DNA of 30,953 nt from a virus: positions 1 through 30,953 of IMG/VR virus record IMGVR_UViG_3300027849_000039. One strand, 5' to 3'. Below the pieces are notes generated by a model that ran no database searches, was not told where the DNA came from, and saw nothing but the letters and a program-made list of their open reading frames with translations. Both the position numbers and the translations under genes were made by a program. Below are positions 1,775 through 23,578 of the stretch, piece after piece. Each line of letters opens with the position of its first letter. Position 1 is the first letter of the stretch.

Positions 1775-2241
1775 TAATAGTTGTTTTTCTGACGTTGAAC
1801 ATTCTCTTCAGCTTTTGCAAAGTAGTAATTGTATGCTGTTTTTGCGTCTAATCCAATAGAGGCAGCGTAATTGATAAAGAAATGTAGAATATCTACCCAT
1901 TCCATATACAATTCTTTTTTGTCTCCTTCAGACATATCAGAAATCTTTAATGTGTTGTATTTTGCAAAGTCTTTTTTCCAGTATTTCCATACTGCATTTC
2001 CAGAACCGTCTTTAATACCTCCAAGGGCGTCTGTCATTTCATGAATTTCATCTACAACTGCGTGAGTATTAACATGCCAGAATTCCATGATTTCTCTAAT
2101 AGTCATATCTTCAAAATTAAAACCATACGTTTTCTCTTGCATGTTTTTTTGATGAGACATTATATCTTCTAAGTGTGTTGTTGATTTATCATAGAAATCG
2201 TTTACTTCTAGATCCTTGCATTCATTATCTATATTTGCCAT
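1774..2241 (-). CDS. All-alpha dimeric dUTPase/dCTPase-like NTP pyrophosphatase (gp56-type)
   Basis: The 155-residue protein has the helical, metal-binding pattern of dimeric dUTPases: DEIHEMTDAL, then WKYWKK, then EWVDILHFFINYAASIG and YYFAKAEENVQRQKNNY. The Glu and Asp residues in the first and third of these are the expected Mg ligands. The family hydrolyses dUTP, and in T4 gp56 also dCTP, to the monophosphate plus pyrophosphate. T4 gp56 is 171 residues and keeps unmodified cytosine out of phage DNA. Here the gene is coupled by one-base TAATG overlaps to a T4-type beta-glucosyltransferase upstream and to the polymerase half downstream. That favours a role in making modified DNA, but the sequence alone does not separate dUTP from dCTP specificity. 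Confidence 0.75.
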   Translation of the reverse strand: MANIDNECKDLEVNDFYDKSTTHLEDIMSHQKNMQEKTYGFNFEDMTIREIMEFWHVNTHAVVDEIHEMTDALGGIKDGSGNAVWKYWKKDFAKYNTLKISDMSEGDKKELYMEWVDILHFFINYAASIGLDAKTAYNYYFAKAEENVQRQKNNY

Positions 2242-3278
2242 TATTTATTTATTTTAAAAGTTATATCTAATCTATCGAATAAGTTTCTTAATTCTTTCTT
2301 CTGTCTTGCGATTAAATCATCTGAATAAGATGCAACTAAATTATTAACATCTCTACTTGATTTCACGTATAGTTTTTCACGTAAAACAGGATCTTGTATC
2401 AGCTCCATGCTTGGGTCATATTCTATTTGAATTGCAGCTAAACAATCGCTTGCCATAGTTTCATAAAAACGAAATGTTGTTACATTATCTAAATGCTCTG
2501 CATCTCCTAATATTAAACTTGCTTTACTTTTTGAAATTGTATCTAATAAAACAGAGTGTTCCATTTTCTTTGCGAAGGTTGTTGGAACCTTTTTAGTCTT
2601 ATACCCAACTAACAAACTCTTTTCGCCATGTGGCATATACTTTCGAACTTGTTGTTCTCTGAATGCTGCTCGATTATCTCCATAGTATATTGCATCCCAT
2701 TCTTTCTTAGGAGCATCAAAGTCAAATAAGGCATTGGTTGGTGTGCTATTCAATTTACTTGCCATTCTGTGTTTAAACATGTAGGTAAACCAATCTAATC
2801 TTTCCCAATTCTTTGGTGTTCTTCCTAAGAATTTTGAGATGTTTTTACCAGGGAATAGGTAAGTTGCGTTCTCTATGATCTCGGACCACTCAGATTCAAG
2901 ATCTTGGATTAGATTGAATCTTTTCAATACTTTAACTGGATTTAAGAAATCAATCCGAGGATCATTTACAAGTGTGTATATTTTACCGCCATATCCTGCA
3001 AGAGCTCTTGCTATTGGTTCTGTGTGTTCTCCAACTTGACCTCCAAAGAAATTAGCTGTACTTAATTGGATAAAGACTGCGTCGTAAGAATCCCAATCAG
3101 CATCTGTATAATTTACGTAAAAATCAAACTCTGCTGTATTTCTATTTTTCTTACCAATCAAATCTACGTCATATCCATTCTCTTCTAAGAGTTGTTTGAA
3201 ATATGTAGCTTCTAAACCTCTGTGGTTTTTACTATTATATGTTAGATTTGAAAATACTGATGTGATTGCTACTTTCAT
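2241..3278 (-). CDS. bgt: T4-type DNA beta-glucosyltransferase (GT-B fold)
   Basis: The 345-residue protein matches T4 beta-glucosyltransferase along its whole length (T4: 351 aa). STANFFGG corresponds to SSINFFGG. KIYTLVNDPRIDF corresponds to KIYYLFTDIRLPF and keeps the catalytic Asp as D106 (D100 in T4). DAIYYGDNRAAFREQQ matches the UDP-binding DVIYGGSFRSGQRE. LILGDAEHLDNVTTFRFYE and ETMASD match the C-terminal sugar-nucleotide site. The T4 enzyme transfers glucose from UDP-glucose to hydroxymethylcytosine in DNA to block restriction. A similar role here implies hydroxymethylated pyrimidines in this genome. No hydroxymethylase is in the window. The gene shares a one-base overlap with each neighbour. 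Confidence 0.88.
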   Translation of the reverse strand: MKVAITSVFSNLTYNSKNHRGLEATYFKQLLEENGYDVDLIGKKNRNTAEFDFYVNYTDADWDSYDAVFIQLSTANFFGGQVGEHTEPIARALAGYGGKIYTLVNDPRIDFLNPVKVLKRFNLIQDLESEWSEIIENATYLFPGKNISKFLGRTPKNWERLDWFTYMFKHRMASKLNSTPTNALFDFDAPKKEWDAIYYGDNRAAFREQQVRKYMPHGEKSLLVGYKTKKVPTTFAKKMEHSVLLDTISKSKASLILGDAEHLDNVTTFRFYETMASDCLAAIQIEYDPSMELIQDPVLREKLYVKSSRDVNNLVASYSDDLIARQKKELRNLFDRLDITFKINK

Positions 3279-7439: not shown

Positions 7440-8516
7440 TTAATAGAATGTTTTATTATGACCATATTTACGATCCCATGCATAATCGAAATCTTTTATC
7501 TTAGTTATTTCAACTTTAATTTTTTGAGCATGTACGAGGATATCTTCATCATAGTGTGTTGGAGCATCTCCGTATTTATCTTTTAATTCTGCTTGTTCTC
7601 CCATGGCATATGTGTAACTTCTAAAAGAACCCAATATTCTGTTCATTTGCATTGCAGCATGTATCATTGTCACTTCTTTACCACCGGGTGCAGTACCTAT
7701 AACAACATCATCGTCCTTTCCTACACTTCTTCCAAATTCTTTTATACCATCTTTAATTTGCTCGGTTAAATCCATAATAGCATCCTTGACCATTTTACCT
7801 AATGGAAGTTTAACTGCAGCACTTTGTAAAATGTCTTTATATCTTTTTAGGTTCTCAGATTTAAATTCCATATCGTTTTTATATGCAATGGCTCCAACTT
7901 TTTCAGCATCTCGTTGTGCTATCTTATTTACCGTTGAATATCTTTGTTGTAATGAATCGACATCAATAATAATAGCTCTATCTGAAACTTCAGCGATTCT
8001 CTTTACACTAGTAAGACCTGTTCCTTGCCATCCTGATCTTGTCTTATTAATACCTATAGTTTCTTCACCTCTTTTCTTATCTGTTTCTATACTTCTAGGA
8101 GTTTTATATTTTCCTGACATTTGTTGTACTCTGTCCAAATATCCATGTATGTCTCTATCAACAAAGAATTTATTATTTTCATCGGCAACACATAACATGT
8201 ATTCACCTCCTGGGATAGTTCCTGATCTTATAGATTGAGCTTCCTCGGGAGCGTATGGGTTAACTTTTTCAACATCTGAAATGTAGAAAGTAATTGTGTT
8301 TTTACCTTTAGCCTTATATGCAGCCTGTGGTGTTGTTACGATTAAATCATCATCTTGTATCTTATCTAGCTCTAGTTTAGTTTTACCATAAAATGCTTTA
8401 GGTAATGTACTGTGTACGCCACCTCCATTAAATAAATCTCTAAGTATTTGTGAGCTAAATGCCTCGTTTAATTTCTGTGAAGCTACAAATCCTTCGAATA
8501 ATTGTACGTGTTTCAT
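7440..8516 (-). CDS. Head-targeted protein, paralogue of the last polyprotein module (358 aa)
   Basis: It starts MKHVQLFEGFVASQKLNEAF. The likely protease site is KLNE|A at E18, not residue 13. From A19 on it is a paralogue of the C-terminal module of the 925-residue polyprotein at 9774-12551. LPKAFYGKTKLELDKIQDDD parallels LPKAFYQLTKMKLDQIGDED. TGLTSVKRIAEVSDRAI parallels TGVSSIKRAADLADRAV. Both end with a KIKDFDYAW-like motif. I recognise no catalytic family. The same domain following a cleavage site in both places is the best internal evidence that these sites are used. The gene overlaps the next upstream one by one base. Confidence 0.8.
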   Translation of the reverse strand: MKHVQLFEGFVASQKLNEAFSSQILRDLFNGGGVHSTLPKAFYGKTKLELDKIQDDDLIVTTPQAAYKAKGKNTITFYISDVEKVNPYAPEEAQSIRSGTIPGGEYMLCVADENNKFFVDRDIHGYLDRVQQMSGKYKTPRSIETDKKRGEETIGINKTRSGWQGTGLTSVKRIAEVSDRAIIIDVDSLQQRYSTVNKIAQRDAEKVGAIAYKNDMEFKSENLKRYKDILQSAAVKLPLGKMVKDAIMDLTEQIKDGIKEFGRSVGKDDDVVIGTAPGGKEVTMIHAAMQMNRILGSFRSYTYAMGEQAELKDKYGDAPTHYDEDILVHAQKIKVEITKIKDFDYAWDRKYGHNKTFY

Positions 8517-9772
8517 TATTTTATTTTAATTTTTGCTAAATGTCCTTCAATTTCAGTATATTGTGATCTGAATTTAGTAAGTGCTAATAAAGTTCCCATT
8601 GTAAAAGAAACGAAATTTCCTTCTGGTTTTTTCATTGCAGCTTTATATGCATCCTTTGCAGATTGTTCATTATCAAAAATACCAAGAATAGATTTACTAG
8701 TAGCAGATCCTATACCGTACCCACCAGATAATTTAATTTCTTGTCCATTAAAATTTACTTTATTGTGCGCAAATACTAAATATTTAGTTTCTCCTTTATC
8801 AGGTGCAGAATTCATAAATTCTCCAAATTCATTTGGAGAATTAAATAGAAATGAACTAAATGATTCATTAACTAATTCGTTAGCTACCGATTCGGTAATT
8901 TCTTTTCCTTTTTTAATTGAGTATTCCCAAATTAAAACATCTCCAATATTATCTTCAATCTTTTTAATATCTGATTTAGATAAATTAAACACAATTACTG
9001 ATTCATAACCTTCGTTATCATCAAATTCAGTAACAATATGTCTGTAATCATCACCAAATAAGTTTTCTAATTCTTCAACCAACATCTTCTTAGGAGCTGG
9101 TGATGCAATTTGATATATCTTAGTAGCCTTTGAAACTGCTTCGTTTACTACTGATTCAAATGCAGTACCTTTAACTTCTTCTGGTTTATTAAACCTTTTA
9201 ATATTACTTTTACATTTTTTCAATAGAGATATAACATGATCTATTGATTCGCCTTTACCTGAATCATTTCCAGCTTTGAGCCAATCATAATAAGTTGTTA
9301 GTGCTTGTGAAGCAGCGTATAATTCATTTTCTATCGTATCCTTAGACATTCTAGAAAATGCTTCATTAACTACTGATTCATTATAACTTACAATGTCAGA
9401 GTATTTAACTTCATGTTCTTCACCGTCCTGATCTAATGCAAAGATAACTTTGTCATTCCACATTGCAGTGTTTTCGTCATTTCCATTATCTGGGTTGTAT
9501 ATTATAAATTCATCTCCATTTGCTAGTTGAATAATACCATCATCGTGTTTCATCGCTTTCATTAACTTCTTCTTGTCAAATTTAGCTTCATTAACAAATG
9601 ATTCAAATGTTAGTAATTTTTTCATTTTCTTCTTTTTCTTTTTATATTCTTTTGTAGCGTCTCCTCGACCGGCTGGGATATCTCCTGATCCATCCTGTGT
9701 TGCTGTTGGTAATAGAACTGCTCCCATACCTCCAATGCTAGACGGTGTTATATTTTCTTCTAGTTCTTTCAT
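8516..9772 (-). CDS. Head-cargo polyprotein with four predicted cleavage sites (418 aa)
   Basis: I chose the ATG at 9772, one base after the stop of the preceding gene, over an ATG at 9790 inside it. The first 49 residues (including SSIGGMGAVLLPTATQDGSG and a KKKKKK run) precede a full tag, MKKLLTFESFVNEA, whose Met is codon 9625-9623. Predicted cuts follow E62 (FESFVNE), E137 (NESVVNE), E211 (FESVVNE) and E303 (ELVNE). These would give modules of about 75, 74, 92 and 115 residues. The first module, starting AKFDKKK, resembles the AKFKKGQ module of the 925-residue polyprotein. No enzyme family is visible. Either the whole frame is made and processed, or translation also starts at 9625. Confidence 0.8.
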   Translation of the reverse strand: MKELEENITPSSIGGMGAVLLPTATQDGSGDIPAGRGDATKEYKKKKKKMKKLLTFESFVNEAKFDKKKLMKAMKHDDGIIQLANGDEFIIYNPDNGNDENTAMWNDKVIFALDQDGEEHEVKYSDIVSYNESVVNEAFSRMSKDTIENELYAASQALTTYYDWLKAGNDSGKGESIDHVISLLKKCKSNIKRFNKPEEVKGTAFESVVNEAVSKATKIYQIASPAPKKMLVEELENLFGDDYRHIVTEFDDNEGYESVIVFNLSKSDIKKIEDNIGDVLIWEYSIKKGKEITESVANELVNESFSSFLFNSPNEFGEFMNSAPDKGETKYLVFAHNKVNFNGQEIKLSGGYGIGSATSKSILGIFDNEQSAKDAYKAAMKKPEGNFVSFTMGTLLALTKFRSQYTEIEGHLAKIKIK

Positions 9773-9773
9773 A

Positions 9774-12551
9774 TTACCAAGCGTAATCAAATTTCTTAAT
9801 CTGAGAAACTTTATCTTTTATTTCTTTAGCATAATTTTTAGCTTCTTTCTCAGCATAATTAGATGCGTATTTCTCTGCTTTAGCCTCTTCAGCTTGTTTA
9901 GTATAATCAACGTATCTACCATAATCATCTAATATTGTAGACATGTGATTAGATGCGTCTCTCATTTTAGCTTCTCTACCCTTAGAATTTCTTCCAATAA
10001 TAATATCTCCGTATCTTCCTTTTTCATTTTTAGCTAAACCATCTTTAATTTGAGCGGTTAATGCATCAATAGAATCTGCAACCATTTTATCTAATGGTAA
10101 TTTAGAAGCTTTAGTTGCTAATATTTCTTGGTACCTTGCCTTGTTTGCATCTTTAAAGTCTTTATCATTCATAAATGCAGTAGCTCCTGATTTTTGATCT
10201 ACTCTTGCAGCAATTTCTGATCTAGAAGATTTGGTAAGATTTGATAAACTAAATGCTACTGCTCTATCTGCTAAATCAGCGGCTCTTTTAATTGAAGAAA
10301 CTCCAGTTGCATCATATCCTTTATATGCTTTGTTACCACCAACTGCCATTCTATCATCTCCACCTTTTAAAGTTTTAGTGTTTGATTTTCTTCTATATCC
10401 TGTTGATTCGTATTTAACTCCTAAGAAATCTTTTCCTCTTGTTAATGCTAAAACACCAGGAGCAACTGATCCTGTTCCGAATGGATTTGCTTTGTCATTA
10501 TCTACTATGTAAAATACTACAGTGTCTCTATCGTTAGCATATGCTTTATAAGCTTCTTTAGGTGTCATGTCAATTAAATCTTCGTCTCCGATTTGATCTA
10601 ATTTCATTTTAGTTAATTGATAAAATGCTTTAGGTAATTCAGCATCTGCTTTATCGCCATATGTCATTGAATCTGTCATTGTTAATAAGTTTCTTAACTT
10701 AGAAGATTTAAATGCTTCAGTTATTAATGATCCTGATTCATTTAAAGAGTTTATAAAGTCTCCGAATGATTCGTAAATAAATTTAGTTTTCATGTTTTTG
10801 TTTTTGTTTTCATTTAAATCTAACGACCATCCATATTCTACGTATGATATTGCTTCATCTGGATTTACTTTATGTTTTTTAGCTACTTTTAATACTACGT
10901 CTCTTGTTATTTGAGAGTTTGGCAGTTTAGAAATTGCCTTATCAAATCCACCAGGAACCCATATTTTTGGATTCTCATCAGTTGCTTCGTGCAATTTCAT
11001 CTCTAATGGTTTTGTATTTATTGGTTCTTCTTCATTTACTGTGATTGAAGCTAGTGCTTTGCTACCAAACTTAGTTAATGAAATACCTTCTTCAGATACG
11101 CTAAAATATTTTGAGTTACTTTTAGTCCATCTTTTACCGTTAGTTGATAGTTCTTTTAGAATATTATTAAATTCCTCTTGTGTGATGTTACCGTCTCCGA
11201 TAGCTTCTAACATTTTGTTACGTATCTTAGCGTGTTTACCCACAGTAAGCGCTGGATGGTTTTCAGTATATCTTCTTTTAAGAGTGATTTTAGATTCAGT
11301 AACTACTGATTCGTACTTTTCCATATTGATAAAAACATCCGCAATATCTTTATTACCTATTGTATTATAGACTGCATTTGGATGTGAATTACCAATTGCT
11401 GCATTAACAACGTCTCCATTATCTTTTACTGTATAGCTTCCACCTTCAAATTCCTCACCGTTGATTGAGATTTCAAAACCAGCTCCTTTACCTTTAACAT
11501 ATTCTAAGTCATGTACTTTTGCTTTAACTTTATCAGCTTGAGAAATTGCAGATGCTATTAAGTTAGCAGCTGCTTCTACTTCTTTTTTACTAAAGTTAAA
11601 CTTTTCAGTAACTAATGATTCAGCAACGATAGTATCATAATGTACCTCTTCAACATCACCGTTATAATCAGCATAAACATCAATAGACCATTCTTTACCA
11701 TCATCATCTTTACCTAACCAATATTGATCTTGACCCTCATTACCGTGATTATCAATTATATCTTCGTAATCAAATTCAACTTTATGTTTTTTACTACCTA
11801 TTTTAAATTCAACATAAGGCCATTCTTTCTTAGTAACTTTAATTGATTTAGCTTCATTAACTACTGATTCCTTTACGAAATTCTTAAGATCATCTGGATC
11901 TATAGAGTATTCCACTTCATCCGCATCGCTCCAAAGAATAACTTCATCTTTACCAATTTCGTAAATTTCGAATGATGAGTTTTTTAAGATTTCAGATCCA
12001 TCAACGTCGTTAGTTTTATCATAAACATCTCCATCAAAATTATCGCTATCTTTTTTGGCTTTAATATACTGTCCTTTTTTAAATTTAGCTTCATTAACTA
12101 AAGATTCTGATTCAAATACGCTAATAGCGATGTTGGTAGATTTTTCATAGCTCTTTAGCTCCATTCCCATTGCATCTGCTACTAATTTCATTTCTGGTTC
12201 GCTCATGTAAGTTGAAGTTCTAACCTCGTATCCACTTTTACCTTTTTTAGAAATTTTCTTAATAGCTTTAACACTGTTACCTGTTGCTTCTTCGAATTTA
12301 TTTGGAAATTCATATTTAAAATCTTTTATATTTCCATCATATGCTTCGTTGGCTACTTCATTATATAAAGATTTTACCCATTCTACTGAGTCTGTTGTTT
12401 TCTTAATCTTAGCTCCAAATTGTTTGAAAAAATCTTTAGCAAAGGATTCAATATCCTTTGAGTCGCTTGCTAGTTGGTGAATATCAGACATAGTTCCTTC
12501 TAATAAGGTCATATAGTCTTGGTTTTCTAGTAAAAATGATTTAAAATTCAT
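9774..12551 (-). CDS. Giant head-cargo polyprotein with repeated protease sites (925 aa)
   Basis: The N-terminus MNFKSFLLENQDYMTLLEGT is tag-like. Strong internal sites are ESLVNE|A (E154), ESVVNE|A (E233), ESLVTE|K (E316), ESVVTE|S (E419) and GSLITE|A (E612). Weaker sites are EVANE|A (E69) and ITVNE|E (E507). They mark modules of about 80-190 residues and a last one of about 313. A second tag-like start, MKTKFIYESFGDFINSLNE, lies at residue 587 (base 10793) after an NENKNKN linker. The 613-925 module is a paralogue of the protein at 7440-8516. Modules two and three look like small acidic beta-rich domains. No known enzyme motif is visible. The design suggests packaging as one chain followed by cutting inside the prohead. 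Confidence 0.85.
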   Translation of the reverse strand: MNFKSFLLENQDYMTLLEGTMSDIHQLASDSKDIESFAKDFFKQFGAKIKKTTDSVEWVKSLYNEVANEAYDGNIKDFKYEFPNKFEEATGNSVKAIKKISKKGKSGYEVRTSTYMSEPEMKLVADAMGMELKSYEKSTNIAISVFESESLVNEAKFKKGQYIKAKKDSDNFDGDVYDKTNDVDGSEILKNSSFEIYEIGKDEVILWSDADEVEYSIDPDDLKNFVKESVVNEAKSIKVTKKEWPYVEFKIGSKKHKVEFDYEDIIDNHGNEGQDQYWLGKDDDGKEWSIDVYADYNGDVEEVHYDTIVAESLVTEKFNFSKKEVEAAANLIASAISQADKVKAKVHDLEYVKGKGAGFEISINGEEFEGGSYTVKDNGDVVNAAIGNSHPNAVYNTIGNKDIADVFINMEKYESVVTESKITLKRRYTENHPALTVGKHAKIRNKMLEAIGDGNITQEEFNNILKELSTNGKRWTKSNSKYFSVSEEGISLTKFGSKALASITVNEEEPINTKPLEMKLHEATDENPKIWVPGGFDKAISKLPNSQITRDVVLKVAKKHKVNPDEAISYVEYGWSLDLNENKNKNMKTKFIYESFGDFINSLNESGSLITEAFKSSKLRNLLTMTDSMTYGDKADAELPKAFYQLTKMKLDQIGDEDLIDMTPKEAYKAYANDRDTVVFYIVDNDKANPFGTGSVAPGVLALTRGKDFLGVKYESTGYRRKSNTKTLKGGDDRMAVGGNKAYKGYDATGVSSIKRAADLADRAVAFSLSNLTKSSRSEIAARVDQKSGATAFMNDKDFKDANKARYQEILATKASKLPLDKMVADSIDALTAQIKDGLAKNEKGRYGDIIIGRNSKGREAKMRDASNHMSTILDDYGRYVDYTKQAEEAKAEKYASNYAEKEAKNYAKEIKDKVSQIKKFDYAW
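10713..10730 (-). other. Predicted prohead-protease site SLITE|A in the polyprotein
   Basis: SLITEA (residues 608-613) precedes a module that also occurs as a separate tagged protein after a KLNE|A site. The I-x-E|A pattern fits the known T4 gp21 consensus. Confidence 0.6.
11292..11312 (-). other. Predicted prohead-protease site ESVVTE|S
   Basis: This is one of nine copies of the ES(L/V)V(N/T)E heptad in three long frames. It marks the boundary between an approximately 103-residue module and the next. Confidence 0.6.
11601..11621 (-). other. Predicted prohead-protease site ESLVTE|K
   Basis: This heptad copy separates an acidic beta-rich module (residues 234-316) from a mixed module (317-419). 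Confidence 0.6.
11850..11870 (-). other. Predicted prohead-protease site ESVVNE|A
   Basis: This heptad copy is nearly identical to the end of the head-targeting tags (FESFVNEA), which suggests internal sites are remnants of tags. Confidence 0.6.
12087..12107 (-). other. Predicted prohead-protease site ESLVNE|A
   Basis: This heptad copy ends the N-terminal module of about 154 residues. The next module starts AKFKK, as does the first cargo module of the neighbouring 418-residue polyprotein (AKFDKK). Confidence 0.6.
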
Positions 12552-12584: not shown

Positions 12585-14468
12585 TTATATATCTTGATTA
12601 TTTATGAATTGTTCATATGTCATAAGACTATTTTCTAATTCTGTTGATTCTGGAACTAAATTCATAGATTTTTCAATTTCAGACTTTAAAGTATCATACA
12701 TTTTATGAATTGCCTTTGGTGTCATTTTCTTAAAGGTTTTTTCATCACCGTCTAATAATGCATTACGTACTTCAGTTGCTGATATGTTATCATCGGTTCT
12801 TGGAATTTCAAATAATCCAAAATCAGATCTAGAATTTAATTGATCTCTATATGAGTCATTATTAACTTGATATCCGTATGATTTCATTCTATCAGTACCT
12901 GTTCCCCATAATACTGGTTCGTATTTAGGTCTCATTGCATTGAACATATAGTCAATTGCTGCTCGATCTAATACTATGATTTCTTTTAAGAACTTATATT
13001 GTTTTTGAACTTGTTTAAACATCTGAACCTGTAAATCCTCAGAGTAAGGCTTTCTAAAATCATCGCCTTTCTTTATAGTTTTTGCTTTAATTAAAAAGAC
13101 AATAACTGGATATCCATTTTCTTTGTGGATTGCCTCTAGCACTTTTGCATGTCCTAATGTAAATGGTTGGAATCTACCAACAAACATATTAACAGGTTGT
13201 TTACCCTGTTCACCGTGCTTAACTGTTAGCGCTTCGTTTAAATGCATACTAGATTTAATTTTGCTATGCATCATAAAGTTATTATAGTCGTATATTGAAT
13301 TTTCATCAGTATTTTCTACAAATATAACTTCATTTATTTTATCTACAACTGTATTTAATTGTAAAACCATATCATCATTAATAATATCTGATGCTTTATT
13401 TCTTTGTTTTCTAAATGTTCCTATTGTTATTTTAAATAGAGACGCTAGAACTTCATTTGAAACATGTGTTAATGTTTTTTCGTTTTTAATAAAGTTAGTG
13501 TTTAGTTTAAAAGACTCTGAGTTTGAGAATTCAGCATTGTCAAAGTTAACTCCAACGTATCTTGATGCATTTTTAGAAATGTAGTCATTAAATACGACCG
13601 ACATTAATTCTAAGTATCTTTTGTTTGCTGTTTCTTCTGTTAGCTTTATTTCTTTAAAATCATATTTAACAAAGTGTTCTAATATATCAGCAATTGCTAT
13701 TTGATACATGTGAGAGCTTTCCCTAACCTCATCAACTTTAGTTTTTGTAAAATCTTCTAATTTATATGAAGATATCTTTTTACCTTCAGAGAAGTTTAAA
13801 ATTAATCCTTCAATCTCTTTCTCTAAATCAACTTGTAATATAGAAGAGTTTGAACTTGGATTAAATATTTTATATATTTCCTTAGTAAAACTAGTTTCAG
13901 CTTCAGTTTCGATATCATAATCAAATGCCTCAGAAAATTCCTTGTCGTTCATTTCTAATAATTTAATTAATTTATCTATTTGAATCTGGTCTAAGATTCC
14001 ATCAAAGATTATATCCTGAGCTTGTACATCTAATACTTTAGCCCATTTAGATACAATCGCAGGATCTATTATAGTTTTCTTAACTTTGCCTGCTTCTGTT
14101 AGTTGCTGGACATGTGTTAATATTAAATGGTTTTGTGGAATATTATCATATGTTATTGATGATACATTAGTTTCCGGTAAGTATTCAAATCCAAATCTGT
14201 AATCTGATGGTAGTGATTCTTTACTACCTGGATTTAAACTTTGAATATGTTTGATAGCAACTTCATATAGGGACATGATAGTCCTGTCAATCACTGTAAG
14301 TGGTTTTCCATTTGAAGACTTATAGTATTCGAATTTGTCATTAATTCTCCTAACATAAAAAGACGGAGCTGAGATTTTCTCAACTACCATCACCCTATTC
14401 TTTAACAATCTATAGAACTCATTCACATTTGTTCCTTGAAAATACTCTCTTAATTTTTGTAATGCCAT
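12585..14468 (-). CDS. Ligase-like nucleotidyltransferase fused to NMN adenylyltransferase-like domain (627 aa)
   Basis: Residues 1 to about 240 look like an RNA-ligase-type nucleotidyltransferase. MVVEKISAPSFYVRR has the candidate nucleophile K31, FGFEYLPE fits motif IIIa, EIEGLILNF (218-226) fits motif IV and SSYKLEDF (K236) fits motif V. Motif I is KISA and not the usual KxDG, so activity is uncertain. The middle is helical. Residues 427-600 are a NadM-like adenylyltransferase: FVGRFQPFTLGHAKVL (HxGH-type at 431-440), then WGTGTDR, then DDNISATEVRNALL (562-568). MHLNE|A (E412) lies between the halves and could be a protease site. The N-terminus (NVNE at 14-17) is only weakly tag-like, and the C-terminus LMTYEQFINN oddly resembles a tag. 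Likely roles are RNA end repair and NAD synthesis from NMN and ATP. Confidence 0.78.
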   Translation of the reverse strand: MALQKLREYFQGTNVNEFYRLLKNRVMVVEKISAPSFYVRRINDKFEYYKSSNGKPLTVIDRTIMSLYEVAIKHIQSLNPGSKESLPSDYRFGFEYLPETNVSSITYDNIPQNHLILTHVQQLTEAGKVKKTIIDPAIVSKWAKVLDVQAQDIIFDGILDQIQIDKLIKLLEMNDKEFSEAFDYDIETEAETSFTKEIYKIFNPSSNSSILQVDLEKEIEGLILNFSEGKKISSYKLEDFTKTKVDEVRESSHMYQIAIADILEHFVKYDFKEIKLTEETANKRYLELMSVVFNDYISKNASRYVGVNFDNAEFSNSESFKLNTNFIKNEKTLTHVSNEVLASLFKITIGTFRKQRNKASDIINDDMVLQLNTVVDKINEVIFVENTDENSIYDYNNFMMHSKIKSSMHLNEALTVKHGEQGKQPVNMFVGRFQPFTLGHAKVLEAIHKENGYPVIVFLIKAKTIKKGDDFRKPYSEDLQVQMFKQVQKQYKFLKEIIVLDRAAIDYMFNAMRPKYEPVLWGTGTDRMKSYGYQVNNDSYRDQLNSRSDFGLFEIPRTDDNISATEVRNALLDGDEKTFKKMTPKAIHKMYDTLKSEIEKSMNLVPESTELENSLMTYEQFINNQDI

Positions 14469-16943: not shown

Positions 16944-17594
16944 TTAAAATTTATTCATTATATCCATTAGTTGTTCAGAATTACCTAATTGGTAAGAACT
17001 ATTAACTAGTCCAATAGTGTCATAATTTGTACCCGTACTATGTTCAAACATTACTCCACCGTCTGAAGAATTGTATTGATCTAATACAAACAGAAGTTCG
17101 TAAATTTCTTGGAACATTTTATCTTTGATTTTACTATCGATTCCACTACCACATGTTACTGCTACTAAGAAATCTCTTCTACCACCCGGATTAAAGTTTG
17201 CTCTACCTTGAATTTCTCCACCAACAGTGGAACTCATTGTACCAGACCATCCGCCAGCAGCACCCGTTGAAGATTGATCAACTTCATATTTCTTATATTT
17301 CTTAATTACCTTAGAAATATTCTCTGCTAATTTAACAGAATTTCTTCCTATGAATATATCATAATCTTCTTGTTTATCATCACCCTGAACCATTAAAGGT
17401 TCCTTATAGCTAGGTAATTTACCAGACTTAAGAGATGCTTCAACTTTTGATAATATTTTTTCATAGCTTTTTCCCCATTTTTCAACAGCGATCTTTGCGA
17501 TTCTAACTTTATCTTCTAATTTAGCTTTAATACCTTTTTTATCAAAAGATACTGCTTCGTTAATAAAAGATTCGAATAATTTTACGTGTTTCAT
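16944..17594 (-). CDS. Head-targeted protein of unknown function (216 aa)
   Basis: The tag MKHVKLFESFINE has a cut predicted after E13. The body starts AVSFDKKGIKAKLEDKVRIA and has a Gly/Ser-rich strand region (TGAAGGWSGTMSSTVGGE, GRANFNPGGRRDFLVAVTCG). A helical segment, KIKDKMFQEIYELLFVLDQY, follows. I do not recognise it. It belongs to the tagged run in which genes are separated by 4-15 bases. Confidence 0.75.
   Translation of the reverse strand: MKHVKLFESFINEAVSFDKKGIKAKLEDKVRIAKIAVEKWGKSYEKILSKVEASLKSGKLPSYKEPLMVQGDDKQEDYDIFIGRNSVKLAENISKVIKKYKKYEVDQSSTGAAGGWSGTMSSTVGGEIQGRANFNPGGRRDFLVAVTCGSGIDSKIKDKMFQEIYELLFVLDQYNSSDGGVMFEHSTGTNYDTIGLVNSSYQLGNSEQLMDIMNKF
17556..17594 (-). repeat. Diverged head-targeting-tag repeat
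   Basis: It encodes MKHVKLFESFINE. The start-proximal half is nearly identical to the other copies (TTTTACGTGTTTCAT on the plus strand). Confidence 0.6.
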
Positions 17595-17609: not shown

Positions 17610-18455
17610 TTATGATATGTCCATTGCGTCGTCATGGTCGCATACAATGCCTTTTTTAGCTATTTGTTTACATAAAGCGTCTAGCTGATTAGTGTCATAA
17701 TTACCTGGAACTTTATCAGTAATTTTAATAGATTTTAAGAAAGCTTGTACTTCGTCTAATCCGAATTTAACTTTATGGCTTACATTTGACGTTTTTGCAA
17801 CATCATATAAATAAGCTCCATAAAACCTACCACGTTGTTCTGTATATGTAAAATTAATTCCTTTTACTTTGAAAGGTTCATTTTGTGCAGAAATTGCCTT
17901 TGCTTCGCTTACAAATTGTTCAAATAATTGTACGTGTTTCATTATATATTCACTTTTTTCTATTTTATTATATATCTCACTCATACTCAACATATCTTTA
18001 ATACTATTGATAAATACATCAGCAGGAACTCTATGTCCTCCATCATATACTGCATGATTAAAAGATACTTTATTGTCTTTAAAGTATTTTCTTACCTCTC
18101 TCCCACTAACGACTGAATCGCTCTTGCCAAATCTTATTTCTATTTTAGTCTTTTTTAAATCAGAATCATCTACTACTGGATCGAATGTTCTGTTAATTAC
18201 CGCTGGATTAAATAACAATACTGGGATTGAAAGTTTGCTTCCAATTAAATAAGAAACATATCCTCCCATTGAAGATCCTACAATAAGATCTGGATTTAAT
18301 GATTTAATATCTTTGTATAATTTATCAAAAGTATTATCATCCCTATAGTTTATTGATGGCATGTAAGCCTTGTCAAAGTTTTTGTTTAAAAATATAATCT
18401 TTGGGTCTTTTTGATCAATACTAGATTCTAAACCATGTAAATACGCTATCTTCAT
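17610..18455 (-). CDS. Alpha/beta hydrolase fused in frame to a head-targeted cargo module (281 aa)
   Basis: Residues 1 to about 160 form a small YcfP/YqiA-like alpha/beta hydrolase. It has LHGLESS near the start, the nucleophile motif GSSMGG (S62), an acidic residue in FGKSDSVVS and a His in DGGHRV (H141). At residue 172 (base 17942) a complete tag, MKHVQLFEQFVSEAK, begins in frame with no stop between, followed by 97 residues of unknown type. This could be a true fusion, or the tag Met could be a second start giving a 110-residue head protein. The hydrolase itself has no N-terminal tag, so its delivery in the virion is uncertain. The substrate is unknown. The upstream gap holds a terminator. 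Confidence 0.8.
   Translation of the reverse strand: MKIAYLHGLESSIDQKDPKIIFLNKNFDKAYMPSINYRDDNTFDKLYKDIKSLNPDLIVGSSMGGYVSYLIGSKLSIPVLLFNPAVINRTFDPVVDDSDLKKTKIEIRFGKSDSVVSGREVRKYFKDNKVSFNHAVYDGGHRVPADVFINSIKDMLSMSEIYNKIEKSEYIMKHVQLFEQFVSEAKAISAQNEPFKVKGINFTYTEQRGRFYGAYLYDVAKTSNVSHKVKFGLDEVQAFLKSIKITDKVPGNYDTNQLDALCKQIAKKGIVCDHDDAMDIS
17904..17942 (-). repeat. 39-bp head-targeting-tag repeat, copy 5 (internal to a gene)
   Basis: It encodes MKHVQLFEQFVSE and differs from 16901-16939 at a single base. It lies inside the hydrolase reading frame. Confidence 0.85.
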
Positions 18456-18534: not shown

Positions 18535-19128
18535 TTAAATTTTAGGTCTTCCTAATAGTATTTTATCGTGCATTTTACCGCCTAACTTCCTAGAATACCA
18601 ACCAGTACCTGGCTCTCCTTCTTTAAGACCGATCCAATCTACTTTTTTACCTAGTACTTTTTCAACAGTATCTAGATCTGAAACTACAGGTACACTATAT
18701 GAATCTAATAAGATCTCTGCGATTTTACCTGAAACTTCAATATAAAATCCTAATTTATTAAGATCCCTACCTCGAGCTGCTATGTATTCTCTCTTTGCTG
18801 GTGAACTTCCATCATGACCAACTCCAGAATACTTTACACCAAACTTAGTTTTTTTACCAAACATAACCATGTCGAAATCTTGATCTCCGTGAATATCAAG
18901 TCCTTCCCAGTAGTTCCAATCTGGATCTGCAAAAACGTCTTCCGGGGATTTAATCTTAGCATGTCCTCCTATTACAGAGTATGCTGTTGAAATTAAATCA
19001 AAGAATTCTCCTGCAAGTTCTGGATATTTTTTATGATTAAATTGTGTAATCTTGCCTCTTTTTGGTTTAATTAACTCACCACTAGTTGCTTCACTAATAA
19101 ACTCTTCAAATAATTTTACTGGCTTCAT
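18535..19128 (-). CDS. Head-targeted protein of unknown function (197 aa)
   Basis: The tag MKPVKLFEEFISE has a predicted cut after E13. The body includes GGHAKIKSPEDVFADPDWNY, then DFDMVMFGKKTKFGVKYSGV, then REYIAARGRDLNKLGFYIEV and VSDLDTVEKVLGKKVDWIGL. The alternating strands and helices suggest an alpha/beta enzyme, but I cannot name a family. It is co-transcribed with the ATP-grasp gene six bases upstream and ends at a terminator. Confidence 0.75.
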   Translation of the reverse strand: MKPVKLFEEFISEATSGELIKPKRGKITQFNHKKYPELAGEFFDLISTAYSVIGGHAKIKSPEDVFADPDWNYWEGLDIHGDQDFDMVMFGKKTKFGVKYSGVGHDGSSPAKREYIAARGRDLNKLGFYIEVSGKIAEILLDSYSVPVVSDLDTVEKVLGKKVDWIGLKEGEPGTGWYSRKLGGKMHDKILLGRPKI

Positions 19129-19134
19129 ATCTAT

Positions 19135-20169
19135 TTATTGTATCGACATAGGTGCAAGGCTCGATTTGAATTCCTTTGGATATTCTTTAGCCATAAAAGC
19201 CCTATGTTCGTTTGCTATTTCTAATAATTCTTTTTCGCATTCTTCTGGAATATTAATATCGTGAGCCATTTTAATAAATGTCTTATATATCACATGGAAC
19301 ATTGATGGTCCTATACCAGGGGCTCCGTTCACTTCAGGTACCCACATCACACCTTTTTTATCTAACATTAAATCAATGTTATAAAAATCTAAGTTAACCT
19401 CTGAGCTTAATTCATCAATCATCTTTAAGATTTGGTCAGTGTATTCGAACTTTTCAATATCTTGATCAATGTATATTAAATCAATCTTATCATCAGCATC
19501 TTTTTTACCAACCGACATGTCGTTATTTGTGTTTGTTATTCTTTCTGCAATATGGATTAATTCTCCATCCATAATAAATGCTCTGAATTCTCTATCTAAT
19601 TCTTTAGCCTCTTGCCAAATATCAAATTCCATATCTGATTTTTGAGCTTCTTCATAAGTATCAAACTTTTCAATTCCCTGTGCACTAAATCCAGCAGCTG
19701 GCTTTGCAATGATAGGTAATTCTAACTTTTCAATATCTTCTAGATTATATACAGTATTTGGAACTGAATCCATATTTTCTGCAAATGCTTTATAGAATAA
19801 TTTCTTATCTGCACTGATCTGAAGATCTTCTACTGTATTAAAAGTAGTAGCTTTCATATCTCTGTGAAAGTTATGCTGAGTTGATGAAAAGTTAAGTAAT
19901 GGAACATCATATCTTATTTTATTATGCTTTCTATTATGAGGTATTAAAACCCCTTCTTTAGAATGATCTTGTTCATAATATCCATCAGTTCCGTCAATTA
20001 ATACAAGGTGTAGATATTTTTCATATATAACCTCCATTAGTTTTTTAGTAACTGGCTCTTTTTTTGATGTTAGGCCTATAGTTCCTCTTAATGCAATTTG
20101 TAATTGTGGAATCTGATCTTCAACAAACCTTTCATTAATAAACTGTTCAAATAACTTTATGTGTTTCAT
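19135..20169 (-). CDS. Head-targeted ATP-grasp enzyme (344 aa)
   Basis: The tag MKHIKLFEQFINE precedes an ATP-grasp ligase body. ELPIIAKPAAGFSAQGIEKF holds the ATP-binding Lys (K156) and a small flexible loop. FDIWQEAKELDREFRAFIMD is the adenine-side region. DFYNIDLMLD and WVPEVNGAPGIG carry the Mg ligands (D266, E279, N281). The fold joins a carboxylate to an amine or thiol through an acyl phosphate. RimK-like modification of a host protein is one possible role, but the acceptor cannot be read from the sequence. An ATP-grasp enzyme carrying a capsid tag is unusual. Confidence 0.85.
   Translation of the reverse strand: MKHIKLFEQFINERFVEDQIPQLQIALRGTIGLTSKKEPVTKKLMEVIYEKYLHLVLIDGTDGYYEQDHSKEGVLIPHNRKHNKIRYDVPLLNFSSTQHNFHRDMKATTFNTVEDLQISADKKLFYKAFAENMDSVPNTVYNLEDIEKLELPIIAKPAAGFSAQGIEKFDTYEEAQKSDMEFDIWQEAKELDREFRAFIMDGELIHIAERITNTNNDMSVGKKDADDKIDLIYIDQDIEKFEYTDQILKMIDELSSEVNLDFYNIDLMLDKKGVMWVPEVNGAPGIGPSMFHVIYKTFIKMAHDINIPEECEKELLEIANEHRAFMAKEYPKEFKSSLAPMSIQ
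20131..20169 (-). repeat. Diverged head-targeting-tag repeat
   Basis: It encodes MKHIKLFEQFINE. It is clearly related to the 39-bp set but with more third-position changes. Confidence 0.6.
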
Positions 20170-20183
20170 ATCTATTTAATCAA

Positions 20184-20212
20184 GAAACGACCCGGAAATA
20201 CCAGGTCGTTCT
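20184..20212 (-). terminator. Hairpin after the 603-aa polyprotein gene
   Basis: AACGACC at 20186-20192 pairs with GGTCGTT at 20204-20210, with two further pairs inside a mismatch. A GC-rich stem in AT-rich sequence right after a stop codon fits a terminator, although the U-run is imperfect. Confidence 0.55.
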
Positions 20213-20223
20213 TTTATTGTTTT

Positions 20224-22035
20224 TTAATTATTTGCTTCTTCAACCTTATAAGTTTTTCCGTCAAATTCAAATTCTTTATCTCCAGCTTCTTTAGCCTTTC
20301 TAACTGCATCTCCGAAAGCATTACCTTCTTCAACTTCTTCAACTTCTTCAGTAACTACCTCTTCTGATAATGAATCTTCATTAATTGTTACTGGGTAAGT
20401 TTTACCGTTAAATTCAAATTCTTCTAAATCTTCTTCAATTGCTTTAGCTCTTGCTCCTAGAAATGCATTACGCTCTTCTAATTTAGTAGCTTCATCAGAA
20501 ACTGTAATAGATTCAACTTCATTTGATTCGTTTATTTTAGAATCTAAATCAACTCTAACATCTTCACCTTCAAAAGTTTGGTTAAATTTGTTAATTGCTG
20601 CTTGTCCCATTGCCTCTTGTTTGATCTGCTCTAAATAAAGTGCAGTACCTTCAACAATACCAATACCTGACCATCCAGCTGCATTTGCAATATCTGAATA
20701 ATATTTGTCTAAGATTGATTTAATAGTGGCAGGTCCTATCTTAATAAAGTGTCCACCTAATCCATTCATTTTAATTTCTAAAGGCTTAATGTTTCCTTTA
20801 ATCATTTTAGAAACTGCATCCGCTTCTCTGTGAAAGTTTGCATCTCCCATTGCTTCAAACGTTAAATACTTAATACATCCTAAAATAGATTCAGTAGACA
20901 TAGCTCCTAAATCTACTAATACTTTATTAAATATTTTATTATATGCCGTTACGACTTTTTTAGCGTCTCTTTTACCTTCAACTTTAATAGCTTCATTAAC
21001 TACTGATTCTTTAATACCAAATTCTTTAGATAACATAGTTTGTACGTCTCCAACGTTTGCACCAGAGATTTCCATACCTTCCGTGTCGTTTGCTGCGAAA
21101 TCTTCAGGTTGAGCGTATACAAATTTAAGTAATAAATCTTCAACGTCGTTTATGTCTTTCTTGTTTTTCTTGTAAACATCTTTTAATTCTTTCATAGTAA
21201 CTGAAAGACCTAAGGCACCGTGTTCATCAGAATCAATATCTAATTGAAATAATTCTTTAGCTTCAGTAACTACAGATTCTTTAACAAATATTGCTTCTTT
21301 ATCACTATATCCGGGTTCTAATGAAAGTCCGTGTTTTTTCATTAATGACTTGTATTTATCAACATTATTAATAAATTCAATAGCAACGTCATCCATATCG
21401 CTTGGATCCGTATTTAAAAATCCTGTATAGTCATTATGTTTTTTATCAAATTGATAGTCTTTGGAAATCATTGATAAGAATGCATTAACTTCTGATTTAC
21501 CCTCAGTAACTAATGATTCTCCTATTCTATTATATAGATGAACATAGTTGCTTCCTTTTTCAGAGTAAACTGATTTTATTGAAAATTCTTTTTGTGCTTT
21601 AGTGTAATATGCTTTAAAGAATAAGTTGTTGTCTAATTCTCCAAAGAAATGATCTGATTTACCAGTAAAGAATTCTGCATTTGGATAAAGCTCTAAAACT
21701 TCTTCCCTTGTTTTAGCGTTTAAAACATCTTTGTTAAAGTCTTTTACAAATTTAGCTTCATCGACTTGTTGCTCTTCTTCATCACTAACTTCCGGTAGAT
21801 TTTCTTCAGTTTCTTCTTCAGAAATTTCTCCAAACAGTTGTGAAATTATTGCTGTTTTTTGTTCTTCTTCTAATCCTTCGAATGAAGTGATTTCCATTGA
21901 ATCTAATATAGATGCAATTTTTGTAGATAATTCCGATCTTTTAGCGTTATTCTCTACTGCTAATTTAATTACCGCCTCATGCGCTAATACATCAGAGAAA
22001 GATCTAAAAGATTTAATTTTGTTCATTTCTGCCAT
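20224..22035 (-). CDS. Head-cargo polyprotein with repeated protease sites (603 aa)
   Basis: I chose the ATG at 22035 (MAEMNKIKSFRSFSDVLAHE) over one at 22152, which lies inside the UvsW gene. The N-terminus is tag-like. Predicted cuts follow QQVDE (E93), ESLVTE (E178), ESVVTE (E258), ESVVNE (E348) and SKINE (E503), with a weaker one in VVTE (E563). The modules are about 80-155 residues long. The largest (349-503) includes NANFHREADAV-like helical sequence and KMNGLGGHFIKIGPATIKSI. The C-terminus carries two copies of a NAF...EFEF(N/D)GKTY element. No enzyme is recognised. Acidic, helix-rich parts could also act as prohead core. A hairpin follows the stop. Confidence 0.82.
   Translation of the reverse strand: MAEMNKIKSFRSFSDVLAHEAVIKLAVENNAKRSELSTKIASILDSMEITSFEGLEEEQKTAIISQLFGEISEEETEENLPEVSDEEEQQVDEAKFVKDFNKDVLNAKTREEVLELYPNAEFFTGKSDHFFGELDNNLFFKAYYTKAQKEFSIKSVYSEKGSNYVHLYNRIGESLVTEGKSEVNAFLSMISKDYQFDKKHNDYTGFLNTDPSDMDDVAIEFINNVDKYKSLMKKHGLSLEPGYSDKEAIFVKESVVTEAKELFQLDIDSDEHGALGLSVTMKELKDVYKKNKKDINDVEDLLLKFVYAQPEDFAANDTEGMEISGANVGDVQTMLSKEFGIKESVVNEAIKVEGKRDAKKVVTAYNKIFNKVLVDLGAMSTESILGCIKYLTFEAMGDANFHREADAVSKMIKGNIKPLEIKMNGLGGHFIKIGPATIKSILDKYYSDIANAAGWSGIGIVEGTALYLEQIKQEAMGQAAINKFNQTFEGEDVRVDLDSKINESNEVESITVSDEATKLEERNAFLGARAKAIEEDLEEFEFNGKTYPVTINEDSLSEEVVTEEVEEVEEGNAFGDAVRKAKEAGDKEFEFDGKTYKVEEANN
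20236..20325 (-). repeat. C-terminal NAF-EFEFDGKTY element, copy 2
   Basis: NAFGDAVRKAKEAGDKEFEF followed by DGKTYKV at the end of the polyprotein. It parallels the element at 20383-20472. Confidence 0.65.
20383..20472 (-). repeat. C-terminal NAF-EFEFNGKTY element, copy 1
   Basis: NAFLGARAKAIEEDLEEFEF followed by NGKTYPV. The two copies share NAF, RxA, EFEF and GKTYxV and are separated by an acidic linker with a possible VVTE site. Confidence 0.65.
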
Positions 22036-22078
22036 TTTTAATAAATTTATTTTATGTTTTACATGTTTAATATATATC

Positions 22079-23578
22079 TCATTCAAAAGAGACTCTTTTA
22101 ATATTATAATCAAACTTTTCTTGTTTGTATATTGATTGTCTTGCCTTTCCATGTTTCCATAGATAATTATCCCACTCCTGTGTTCTAATATTGTCTACAA
22201 AATCTACAATTAATACTTTGTCCTTTGATTCATGTTGTCTTAAACCACGACCAATTGACTGTCTAATTATTACTTCTGATTTAAACGATTCCGTAAAAAA
22301 GATACTGTGTATTTTCTTAATAGAAATACCTGTTGAAAAGGTACCGTAACTCGCGACGATAACGACCTCATCACCTGCTTCCATTTTTTTCTTATACTCT
22401 TCTCTAATATCTTTATCAGTTCCACCGTCGACATAAAAAACTCTTTTATCGCTCTCCTGCCTAAGCTTCTCATATAATTTTTTACCATGTTCAATCCTGT
22501 GGAAAAGGACAAGTGAATTCCTGGGTATTCTGCCAATAACACTTGAAATAAAGTCGAGACGAGCTTCGCTAGTAATAACAAAGTTTTGTTCAAGTGAAAA
22601 TACATCTTTTCTATCATATTTATTCTGTGCTAATTCCTGGAACGCAAGCCTTTGTGAATCTGTTGCATAATTCATTTCTATTACTTTAACAATACACTTT
22701 GCAATGTGTCCTTCTTTCTGTAGAAAGCTAGCTTTAACTTCGCTAATAACTGGACCTGTTTGACTCATTAGTGTTAATTTATCGAGAGTTCCTTCTTTAG
22801 GAATTGTTCCAGATAAACCAAATTTATATTGTGCGTTAGTACATTTCTGTAAAATAGTTTTAATTGAATTACTTTTTGCCTTATGAGTTTCATCAACAAG
22901 GACTGCATCAAATTGTTCAAAGTACTCAGCATCTTTTTTTACTAATGACTGGTACGTTCCAATAATAATGTTTTTATTTGATTTGATTTTTTGACCTGCA
23001 AAGATTTGTTGAATCTTTAACGGGACTTTGTTCATGTAGTTATAGTCATGAAAGTCTTCATGCGCCTGTAATACTAAAGAAACGTTAGGTACTATCATTA
23101 GGATCTTTTCAGCCTTTCCTTTTTCTAACATATATGCTATAGTTAGGAAACTTATAAGAGTCTTACCTGCTGATGTTGCTAACTCTGCTAAGCACTTTCT
23201 AAATTTAAGTATGTTATATGCTGTTTCAATTTGATAATCTCTAGGAGTAATCTCGGCTCCTTTAAAAAAGTCAAGGGACCATTTCTCAAAAGTCTCTGCA
23301 TTTATATTAGGATCAATTAAACGTTTGATTCCGTTCATTTCAATCTCTAGATTATAGTCTTTACATATTTGTAAAACATGGCGCCATAATCCAGCAGGAA
23401 TCCATTTGTCATCCTTTATATAAGATACATATCCATCCCAAACTCCTCGCTTTACTAACGGATTAAATCTCCAGCTCTCGATTCTTTTCGTGAGGGAGAT
23501 TGTAATTTGTTCTAATTCAAGTTCAGTCGCATCGTCAATTCTTAAGAACTGATTATCATCTGTTAATGTGAGTATCAA
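22079..23578 (-). CDS. uvsW: UvsW-type recombination helicase (SF2)
   Basis: The 499-residue protein is close to T4 UvsW in length (503 aa). It has the SF2 helicase motifs: RDYQIETAYNIL (Q-like), ELATSAGKTLISF (motif I, 134-140), VLVDETHKAKS (motif II DETH, 229-232), FGLSGTIPKE (motif III), SYGTFSTGISIKKIH (motif V) and RQSIGRGLRQ (motif VI). The first 100 residues form the small DNA-binding domain of UvsW. It unwinds branched DNA and R-loops and helps T4-type phages switch to recombination-dependent replication. Its neighbour upstream resembles UvsY, as in T4. Confidence 0.93.
   Translation of the reverse strand: MILTLTDDNQFLRIDDATELELEQITISLTKRIESWRFNPLVKRGVWDGYVSYIKDDKWIPAGLWRHVLQICKDYNLEIEMNGIKRLIDPNINAETFEKWSLDFFKGAEITPRDYQIETAYNILKFRKCLAELATSAGKTLISFLTIAYMLEKGKAEKILMIVPNVSLVLQAHEDFHDYNYMNKVPLKIQQIFAGQKIKSNKNIIIGTYQSLVKKDAEYFEQFDAVLVDETHKAKSNSIKTILQKCTNAQYKFGLSGTIPKEGTLDKLTLMSQTGPVISEVKASFLQKEGHIAKCIVKVIEMNYATDSQRLAFQELAQNKYDRKDVFSLEQNFVITSEARLDFISSVIGRIPRNSLVLFHRIEHGKKLYEKLRQESDKRVFYVDGGTDKDIREEYKKKMEAGDEVVIVASYGTFSTGISIKKIHSIFFTESFKSEVIIRQSIGRGLRQHESKDKVLIVDFVDNIRTQEWDNYLWKHGKARQSIYKQEKFDYNIKRVSFE

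Follow-up and report, generated by a model that had tools for sequence, protein, structure and literature searches.

To our knowledge, packaging guided by a capsid-targeting sequence (CTS) has been described mainly in the internal proteins of phage T4 and in Alt, the ADP-ribosyltransferase delivered by the T4 virion. The CTS-bearing internal proteins of T4 include the anti-restriction protein IPI* (PMC3012670). Mutants of T4 indicated that targeting by the CTS involves residues 4 and 7 and its processing residues 8 and 10; gp21 cleaves after L/I-X-E, and a CTS with Asp at the place of the P1 Glu still targets while its processing is blocked (PMC9026906). As regards ATP-grasp ligases, the closest described systems are RimK, the S6 glutamate ligase, in which R189 and N262 contact and hold the glutamate chain (PMC10092738), LysX/ArgX, D-alanine--D-alanine ligase (Ddl), and the R2K ligases of phages, which are likewise predicted to modify host proteins and which the available excerpts of the reports describe without virion targeting (Burroughs 2015; jumbo phage survey 2021). 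No earlier report of a virion ATP-grasp protein, or of an ATP-grasp protein as CTS cargo, was found in the open-access literature.

We analyzed a 30,953-bp viral fragment from IMG/VR (IMGVR_UViG_3300027849_000039), referred to below as the window, in which a minus-strand ORF with an ATG start encodes a 344-aa protein beginning with MKHIKLFEQFINER. Its N-terminal signal resembles that of T4 IPI, IPII, and IPIII (the CTS of IPII and IPIII is MKTYQEFIAE) in that it is short, contains the aromatic, F, I/L, and E residues, ends in L/I-x-E and is common to unrelated small proteins, an S77 protease being encoded in relatives. The window tag is however three residues longer, its cargo is an enzyme, and tagged genes are much more numerous in the window (ten or more in 31 kb). 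Like Alt, the ATP-grasp protein is predicted to be a head-packaged enzyme ejected to modify host proteins, whereas its chemistry would be ligation rather than ADP-ribosylation, and the two proteins show no homology. The features of the window are listed in Table 1.

Table 1. Coordinates of the features identified in the window.
Feature	Position	Strand	Evidence
CTS-tagged ATP-grasp (RimK/LysX-like) ligase, predicted, 344 aa	19135..20169	-	Pfam, PHROG, model, alignment
CTS-like tag MKHIKLFEQFINE, with a predicted cleavage by the prohead protease after E13	20131..20169	-	motif statistics, matrix
ATP-grasp catalytic core, about residues 110-300	19270..19842	-	profile alignment, homologue alignment
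Candidate internal-protein polyprotein, encoded upstream and containing multiple ES[LV]V[NT]E sites	20224..22152	-	sequence
CTS-tagged GNAT-fold protein, 197 aa, immediately downstream of the ATP-grasp gene	18535..19128	-	homologue alignment, model
CTS-tagged protein, 216 aa, in the tagged block	16944..17594	-	tag motif
CTS-tagged protein, 106 aa	16619..16939	-	tag motif
CTS-tagged protein, 100 aa	16313..16615	-	tag motif
CTS-tagged protein with KxDG ligase-like motif, 431 aa	15013..16308	-	tag motif; KxDG read from sequence
CTS-tagged protein, 173 aa	14484..15005	-	tag motif
Three CTS-tagged proteins, 157, 83, and 178 aa	6118..7424	-	tag motif

The N-terminal tag

Residues Y4, F7, I8, and E10 of T4 IPIII correspond to F7, F10, I11, and E13 of the window tag, which fits at all four positions. 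The tag thus has the features of a T4-type CTS, namely an N-terminal signal of 10-20 aa with the key residues 4/7/8/10 and an L/I-X-E site. Starts similar to MKHIKLFEQFINE were found on about ten further window proteins with otherwise unrelated bodies, most of which are grouped in a single block extending from 6.1 to 20.2 kb. Since a loose version of the motif is N-terminal in 12 of the 37 minus-strand ORFs, as compared with about 1.4 expected from its internal rate, the tag is not attributable to chance; a stricter test was passed by 10 of the 36 other window ORFs. When a matrix built from the window tags alone was applied to T4 proteins, the IPII/IPIII CTS "YQEFIAE" was scored at p=0.001, gp22 weakly (p=0.01) and IPI more weakly still (p=0.04), and none of the proteins gp23, gp24, gp67, gp68, and gp21 were picked. 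In the AlphaFold2 model, the tag segment is flexible and of low confidence (pLDDT about 50). No signal of phage-specific tag dialects was obtained, the ATP-grasp tags being no closer to the tags of the same contig (9/19).

The relatives of the window protein, for which the catalytic core rather than the tag served as the search seed, amount to 35 distinct proteins forming two groups: the first consists of proteins showing from 86 to about 24% identity with the window protein, and the second is a tagged second ATP-grasp group. In four contigs (L007, L008, L009, and L010), a tagged paralogue of this second group lies in tandem with the first. A recognizable tag was present in 33 of the 35 relatives, 30 of which have kept the P1 glutamate (E10 in IPIII numbering); the IPIII F7 position is aromatic in all 33 and the I8 position is I, L, or V in 30. 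The three tags lacking the P1 Glu are those of L003, L021, and L034, and the tag is absent in two distant homologues, L044 and L103. It was retained even in proteins showing as little as 21-25% overall identity with the window protein. Among the other ORFs of the same loci, only 82 out of 545 (about 15%) are tagged, as against 25 of 28 ATP-grasps (Fisher test, p about 1e-16); a strict recount of this set gave 24/28 and left the conclusion unchanged. In L015, the start codon was taken to be an internal one so as to include the tag. Among the phage records, the uncultured LR756500 was the only strong relative, PQ867840 being a weak one (26%). The pairing of predicted tag and ATP-grasp is found again in dozens of contigs of related phages. 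The gene shows a dN/dS ratio of about 0.03-0.08 in five close pairs of relatives, and the protein is therefore maintained.

The head genes of the relatives

The T4 portal is encoded in 13 and the T4-type S77 prohead protease in 12 of the 16 relative contigs checked, the protease also being present in L002. As the window fragment does not include a head cluster, the presence of a cognate protease in the window phage itself is deduced from these relatives. In 7 of 10 head clusters (L108-L111, L114, L116, and L117), the interval between the portal and the protease is occupied by an acidic protein of 112-123 aa, in the position of gp67, which carries the tag or a variant of it at its start; no gene was found in this interval in L112, L113, and L115. 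The major capsid proteins (PHROG 138, 4e-45) begin with ..LINEAE.., ..LLNEAE.. or similar sequences, i.e., with an [IL]NE/[AS] site (the slash marks the cut) matching the end of the tag, and an [IL]NE/A-type motif occurs in 11 of 388 untagged proteins. In L002, the gene order is gp4, gp2, gp20 portal, ATP-grasp, tagged 118-aa acidic protein, gp21, as compared with 20-67-68-21-22-23 in T4; this is the only relative in which the ATP-grasp gene lies inside the head cluster, and in most of the others it lies outside.

The S77 proteases of L108-L117 are 540-820 aa long, versus 212 aa in T4 gp21, and the interval between the protease and the capsid gene of these contigs showed no separate gp22; the long protease is probably a protease-scaffold fusion. 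In L003 (LR756500.1), intein-like ORFs and an additional portal-like fragment, which is degenerate, adjoin the ATP-grasp gene at about 256-262 kb, and the complete portal sits apart, at 229 kb.

The class of the ATP-grasp enzyme

The ORF matches the Pfam family Dala_Dala_lig_C (4e-7, over the cut-off of that family) and PHROG 2599, "ribosomal protein S6 glutaminyl transferase" (3e-12), and its AlphaFold2 model (pLDDT 82) matches 626 PDB chains (E<=1e-3), the best of which include ArgX/LysX, PsnB, Ddl, and RimK. The catalytic core carries K122, K156, S162, G165, E187, E194, R196, R210, D266, E279, and N281. Among 27 homologues, K122, K156, S162, G165, D266, and E279 are invariant, as are R196 and R210 (27/27); E occurs at position 187 in 20 homologues and Q in 6, and position 281, that of the metal-binding Asn, is N in 19/27 and S in 8/27. 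The two-lysine nucleotide site, the Gly-rich loop, the metal ligands, and the fold match all place the protein in the ATP-grasp superfamily, as the initial annotation had claimed from K156, E187, D266, E279, and N281, all five of which are present; Pfam, PHROG, and AlphaFold2 agree on this assignment. From its sequence, it is very probably an active ATP-dependent ligase.

In a profile alignment with E. coli RimK, the residues K100, K141, E178, R189, R203, D248, E260, and N262 of RimK corresponded to K122, K156, E187, R196, R210, D266, E279, and N281 of the window protein. It therefore has the equivalents of R189, R203, and N262 (the last being N281, present in 19/27 homologues) expected in a RimK-like mechanism, and shares the fold and the nucleotide and Mg ligands with RimK and LysX/ArgX. 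It differs from them in its diverged N-terminal domain, the presence of the CTS and an identity of 13-17% in the structural matches. It is also far under the curated cut-off of the RimK family TIGR00768 (18.8 versus 143.4 bits; homologue L014 scored 34.9 bits, E 1e-8), and therefore falls outside that family: it is predicted to be a RimK/LysX-type carboxylate-amine ligase by mechanism. This substrate Arg pattern supports the amino-acid or peptide ligase class put forward in the initial annotation. The structure prediction suggested there for settling the class confirmed the ATP-grasp fold and left the class undecided, since ArgX and LysX lead, followed by RimK, Ddl, and purine-pathway ligases, within a narrow, nearly tied range of Z scores (15-17.5). 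As the sequence profile also scores DdlB higher than RimK overall, the substrate class is a soft assignment.

For the nucleotide-binding core, Ddl is the top match both in Pfam and by sequence profile. Its catalytic Arg, which we take to be R255 of E. coli DdlB, two residues ahead of the metal Asp, is however replaced by N264, which varies (N/S/C/A/T/G) in the family, and the window protein carries the RimK-type Arg pair; a D-Ala-D-Ala ligase was rejected on these grounds. Members of the R2K clade lack the linker lysine, carry a second Lys/Arg in the loop, and have no Gly-rich motif (PMC4431377). Since the window enzyme retains the linker lysine (K122 is invariant) and has an SxxGI loop, it was not assigned to this clade. 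GshB gave no convincing profile match to the window ATP-grasp, and a sequence search in the PDB yielded only weak matches with Ddl, synapsin, and TTL.

The tagged neighbors and other ORFs of the window

The E13 residue of the tag of the GNAT-fold protein is invariant in the 21 homologues aligned. The model of this protein (pLDDT 91) gave top VIA rows consisting essentially all of GNAT-type acetyltransferases, the best structural match being distant (Z 9.3), and the same order of the ATP-grasp and GNAT-fold genes occurs in L008. Two protein-modifying folds encoded by adjacent genes and bearing a common head signal are compatible with an injected effector set.

Several other ORFs of the minus strand can be described from their sequence. 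Sites of the ES[VL]V[NT]EA type occur roughly every 70-100 aa in the ORFs 8516-9790, 9774-12551, and 20224-22152, which are candidate polyproteins from which the prohead protease would release many internal proteins. The KxDG protein (RNA/DNA-ligase-like) adjoins a protein of 627 aa that contains a nucleotidyltransferase domain (12585-14468); homologues of both were found in LR756500, L017, and L020, and a virion-packaged RNA or NAD repair function is possible. In the ORF 17610-18455, a UPF0227-type esterase is followed, in the same frame, by an internal MKHVQLFEQFVSEA tag and another domain; this may be either two genes or a fusion. A beta-glucosyltransferase-like ORF (2241-3278, PHROG 7922) hints at modified phage DNA. 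Just upstream of the ATP-grasp gene, a hairpin followed by a T-rich stretch (20175-20215) probably acts as the terminator of the gene before it.

Discussion

The head-targeting tag proposed in the initial annotation was upheld by the match with the T4 IPII/IPIII CTS and its family-wide retention, as well as by the tagged gp67-position protein, the capsid-protein site, and the S77 protease of the same genomes. We can therefore say with good confidence that the ATP-grasp protein is probably packaged in the head of a large T4-like phage. The 13-residue CTS would dock the newly made enzyme into the scaffold core of the prohead, where the S77 protease would cut it after E13 (FINE/R), giving a mature enzyme starting at R14 inside the head, and a modest number of copies would leave the head together with the DNA during infection. 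Inside the host cell, the RimK/LysX-like site would form an acyl-phosphate on the carboxylate of a substrate and join an amino acid or a short peptide to it. The acceptor would most likely be a host protein, possibly its C-terminus, as in the action of RimK on ribosomal protein S6, and the ligation would be an immediate-early takeover or counter-defence step, comparable with Alt in its delivery and not in its chemistry. The docking and cutting steps (signal, site, and protease being present) and the catalytic apparatus are supported by the sequence and by comparison with relatives, while the actual cleavage and packaging, the ejection with the DNA, the substrate, and the host target are what we infer. 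Because the pairing of tag and enzyme recurs in the relatives, the phage probably injects the enzyme to modify a host protein; for injection and action on a host protein, the balance tilts slightly in favor, and the reading as a whole, that of a tagged internal head protein which is cleaved, ejected, and ligates in the host, is likewise favored by a little. The initial annotation, reasoning from Alt, thought of host RNA polymerase as the target, which is a guess; given the homology to RimK, a ribosomal protein or another protein C-terminus is at least as likely. It had also named a housekeeping biosynthetic role as evidence to the contrary; no relative was found in 84,980 cellular genomes by two motif scans, which used short conserved peptides and thus reach fairly close relatives only.

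The enzyme might be docked or packaged via its tag and act in assembly, by modifying scaffold, capsid, or core proteins in the prohead. The position of the L002 gene between the portal and the prohead protease and the tag common to the ATP-grasp and the gp67-position core protein would fit this role, but a single relative has the gene in the head cluster, the others having it among unrelated or accessory tagged genes; since some of the group's contigs, which may be fragments, yielded no copy, the gene is probably accessory, and we consider an assembly role rather unlikely. Still less probable is a virion-delivered counter-defence enzyme modifying or inactivating a host immune protein or a signaling metabolite: T4 IPI*, a CTS-bearing anti-restriction protein, provides a precedent (PMC3012670), and the two divergent tagged paralogues are sporadically distributed, whereas the strong purifying selection shows no trace of an arms race, and the lack of a PADLOC match means that the enzyme is not among the known defence proteins, and no more.

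The tag would be incidental if the enzyme built a small molecule or modified the phage DNA by amino-acid or sugar hypermodification. The glucosyltransferase-like protein (PHROG 7922), a nucleotide-sugar dehydratase-like ORF recognized by sequence in the window, and the weak sugar-transfer ATP-grasp matches in the second group point that way. Yet the tag is kept at low core identity, no dedicated small-molecule operon was recognized around the gene in the relatives, and a head-targeted DNA-modifying enzyme would be misplaced, as DNA modification precedes packaging; this explanation is improbable. That the tag is a sorting or docking signal within the cell other than for capsid targeting might be argued on the grounds that packaging of these phages' proteins is a prediction from sequence. 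With the T4 CTS match at p=0.001, the L/I-x-E end, the S77 protease, the tagged core protein, and the [IL]NE/A site in the major capsid protein, it is most improbable.

CTS cargo as a kind is known from T4; ATP-grasp cargo, in tandem paralogues across diverse large phages, did not turn up in the open-access literature. With the CTS-like signal, the cargo injected by large uncultured phages can be predicted from sequence, and one recurrent cargo is predicted to be an ATP-dependent ligase, a new sort for the CTS route. If the proposed reading is true, amino-acid ligation would join the chemistries that phages inject, and there would be a general rule for listing the injected effectors in T4-like phage genomes. 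More tentatively, a widespread lineage of large T4-like phages may deliver in its virions RimK-like peptide ligases (often two paralogues), a GNAT-fold protein, and other CTS-tagged enzymes which alter host proteins, possibly those of the ribosome, at the onset of infection; ATP-dependent ligation of amino acids would then be a virion-delivered weapon.
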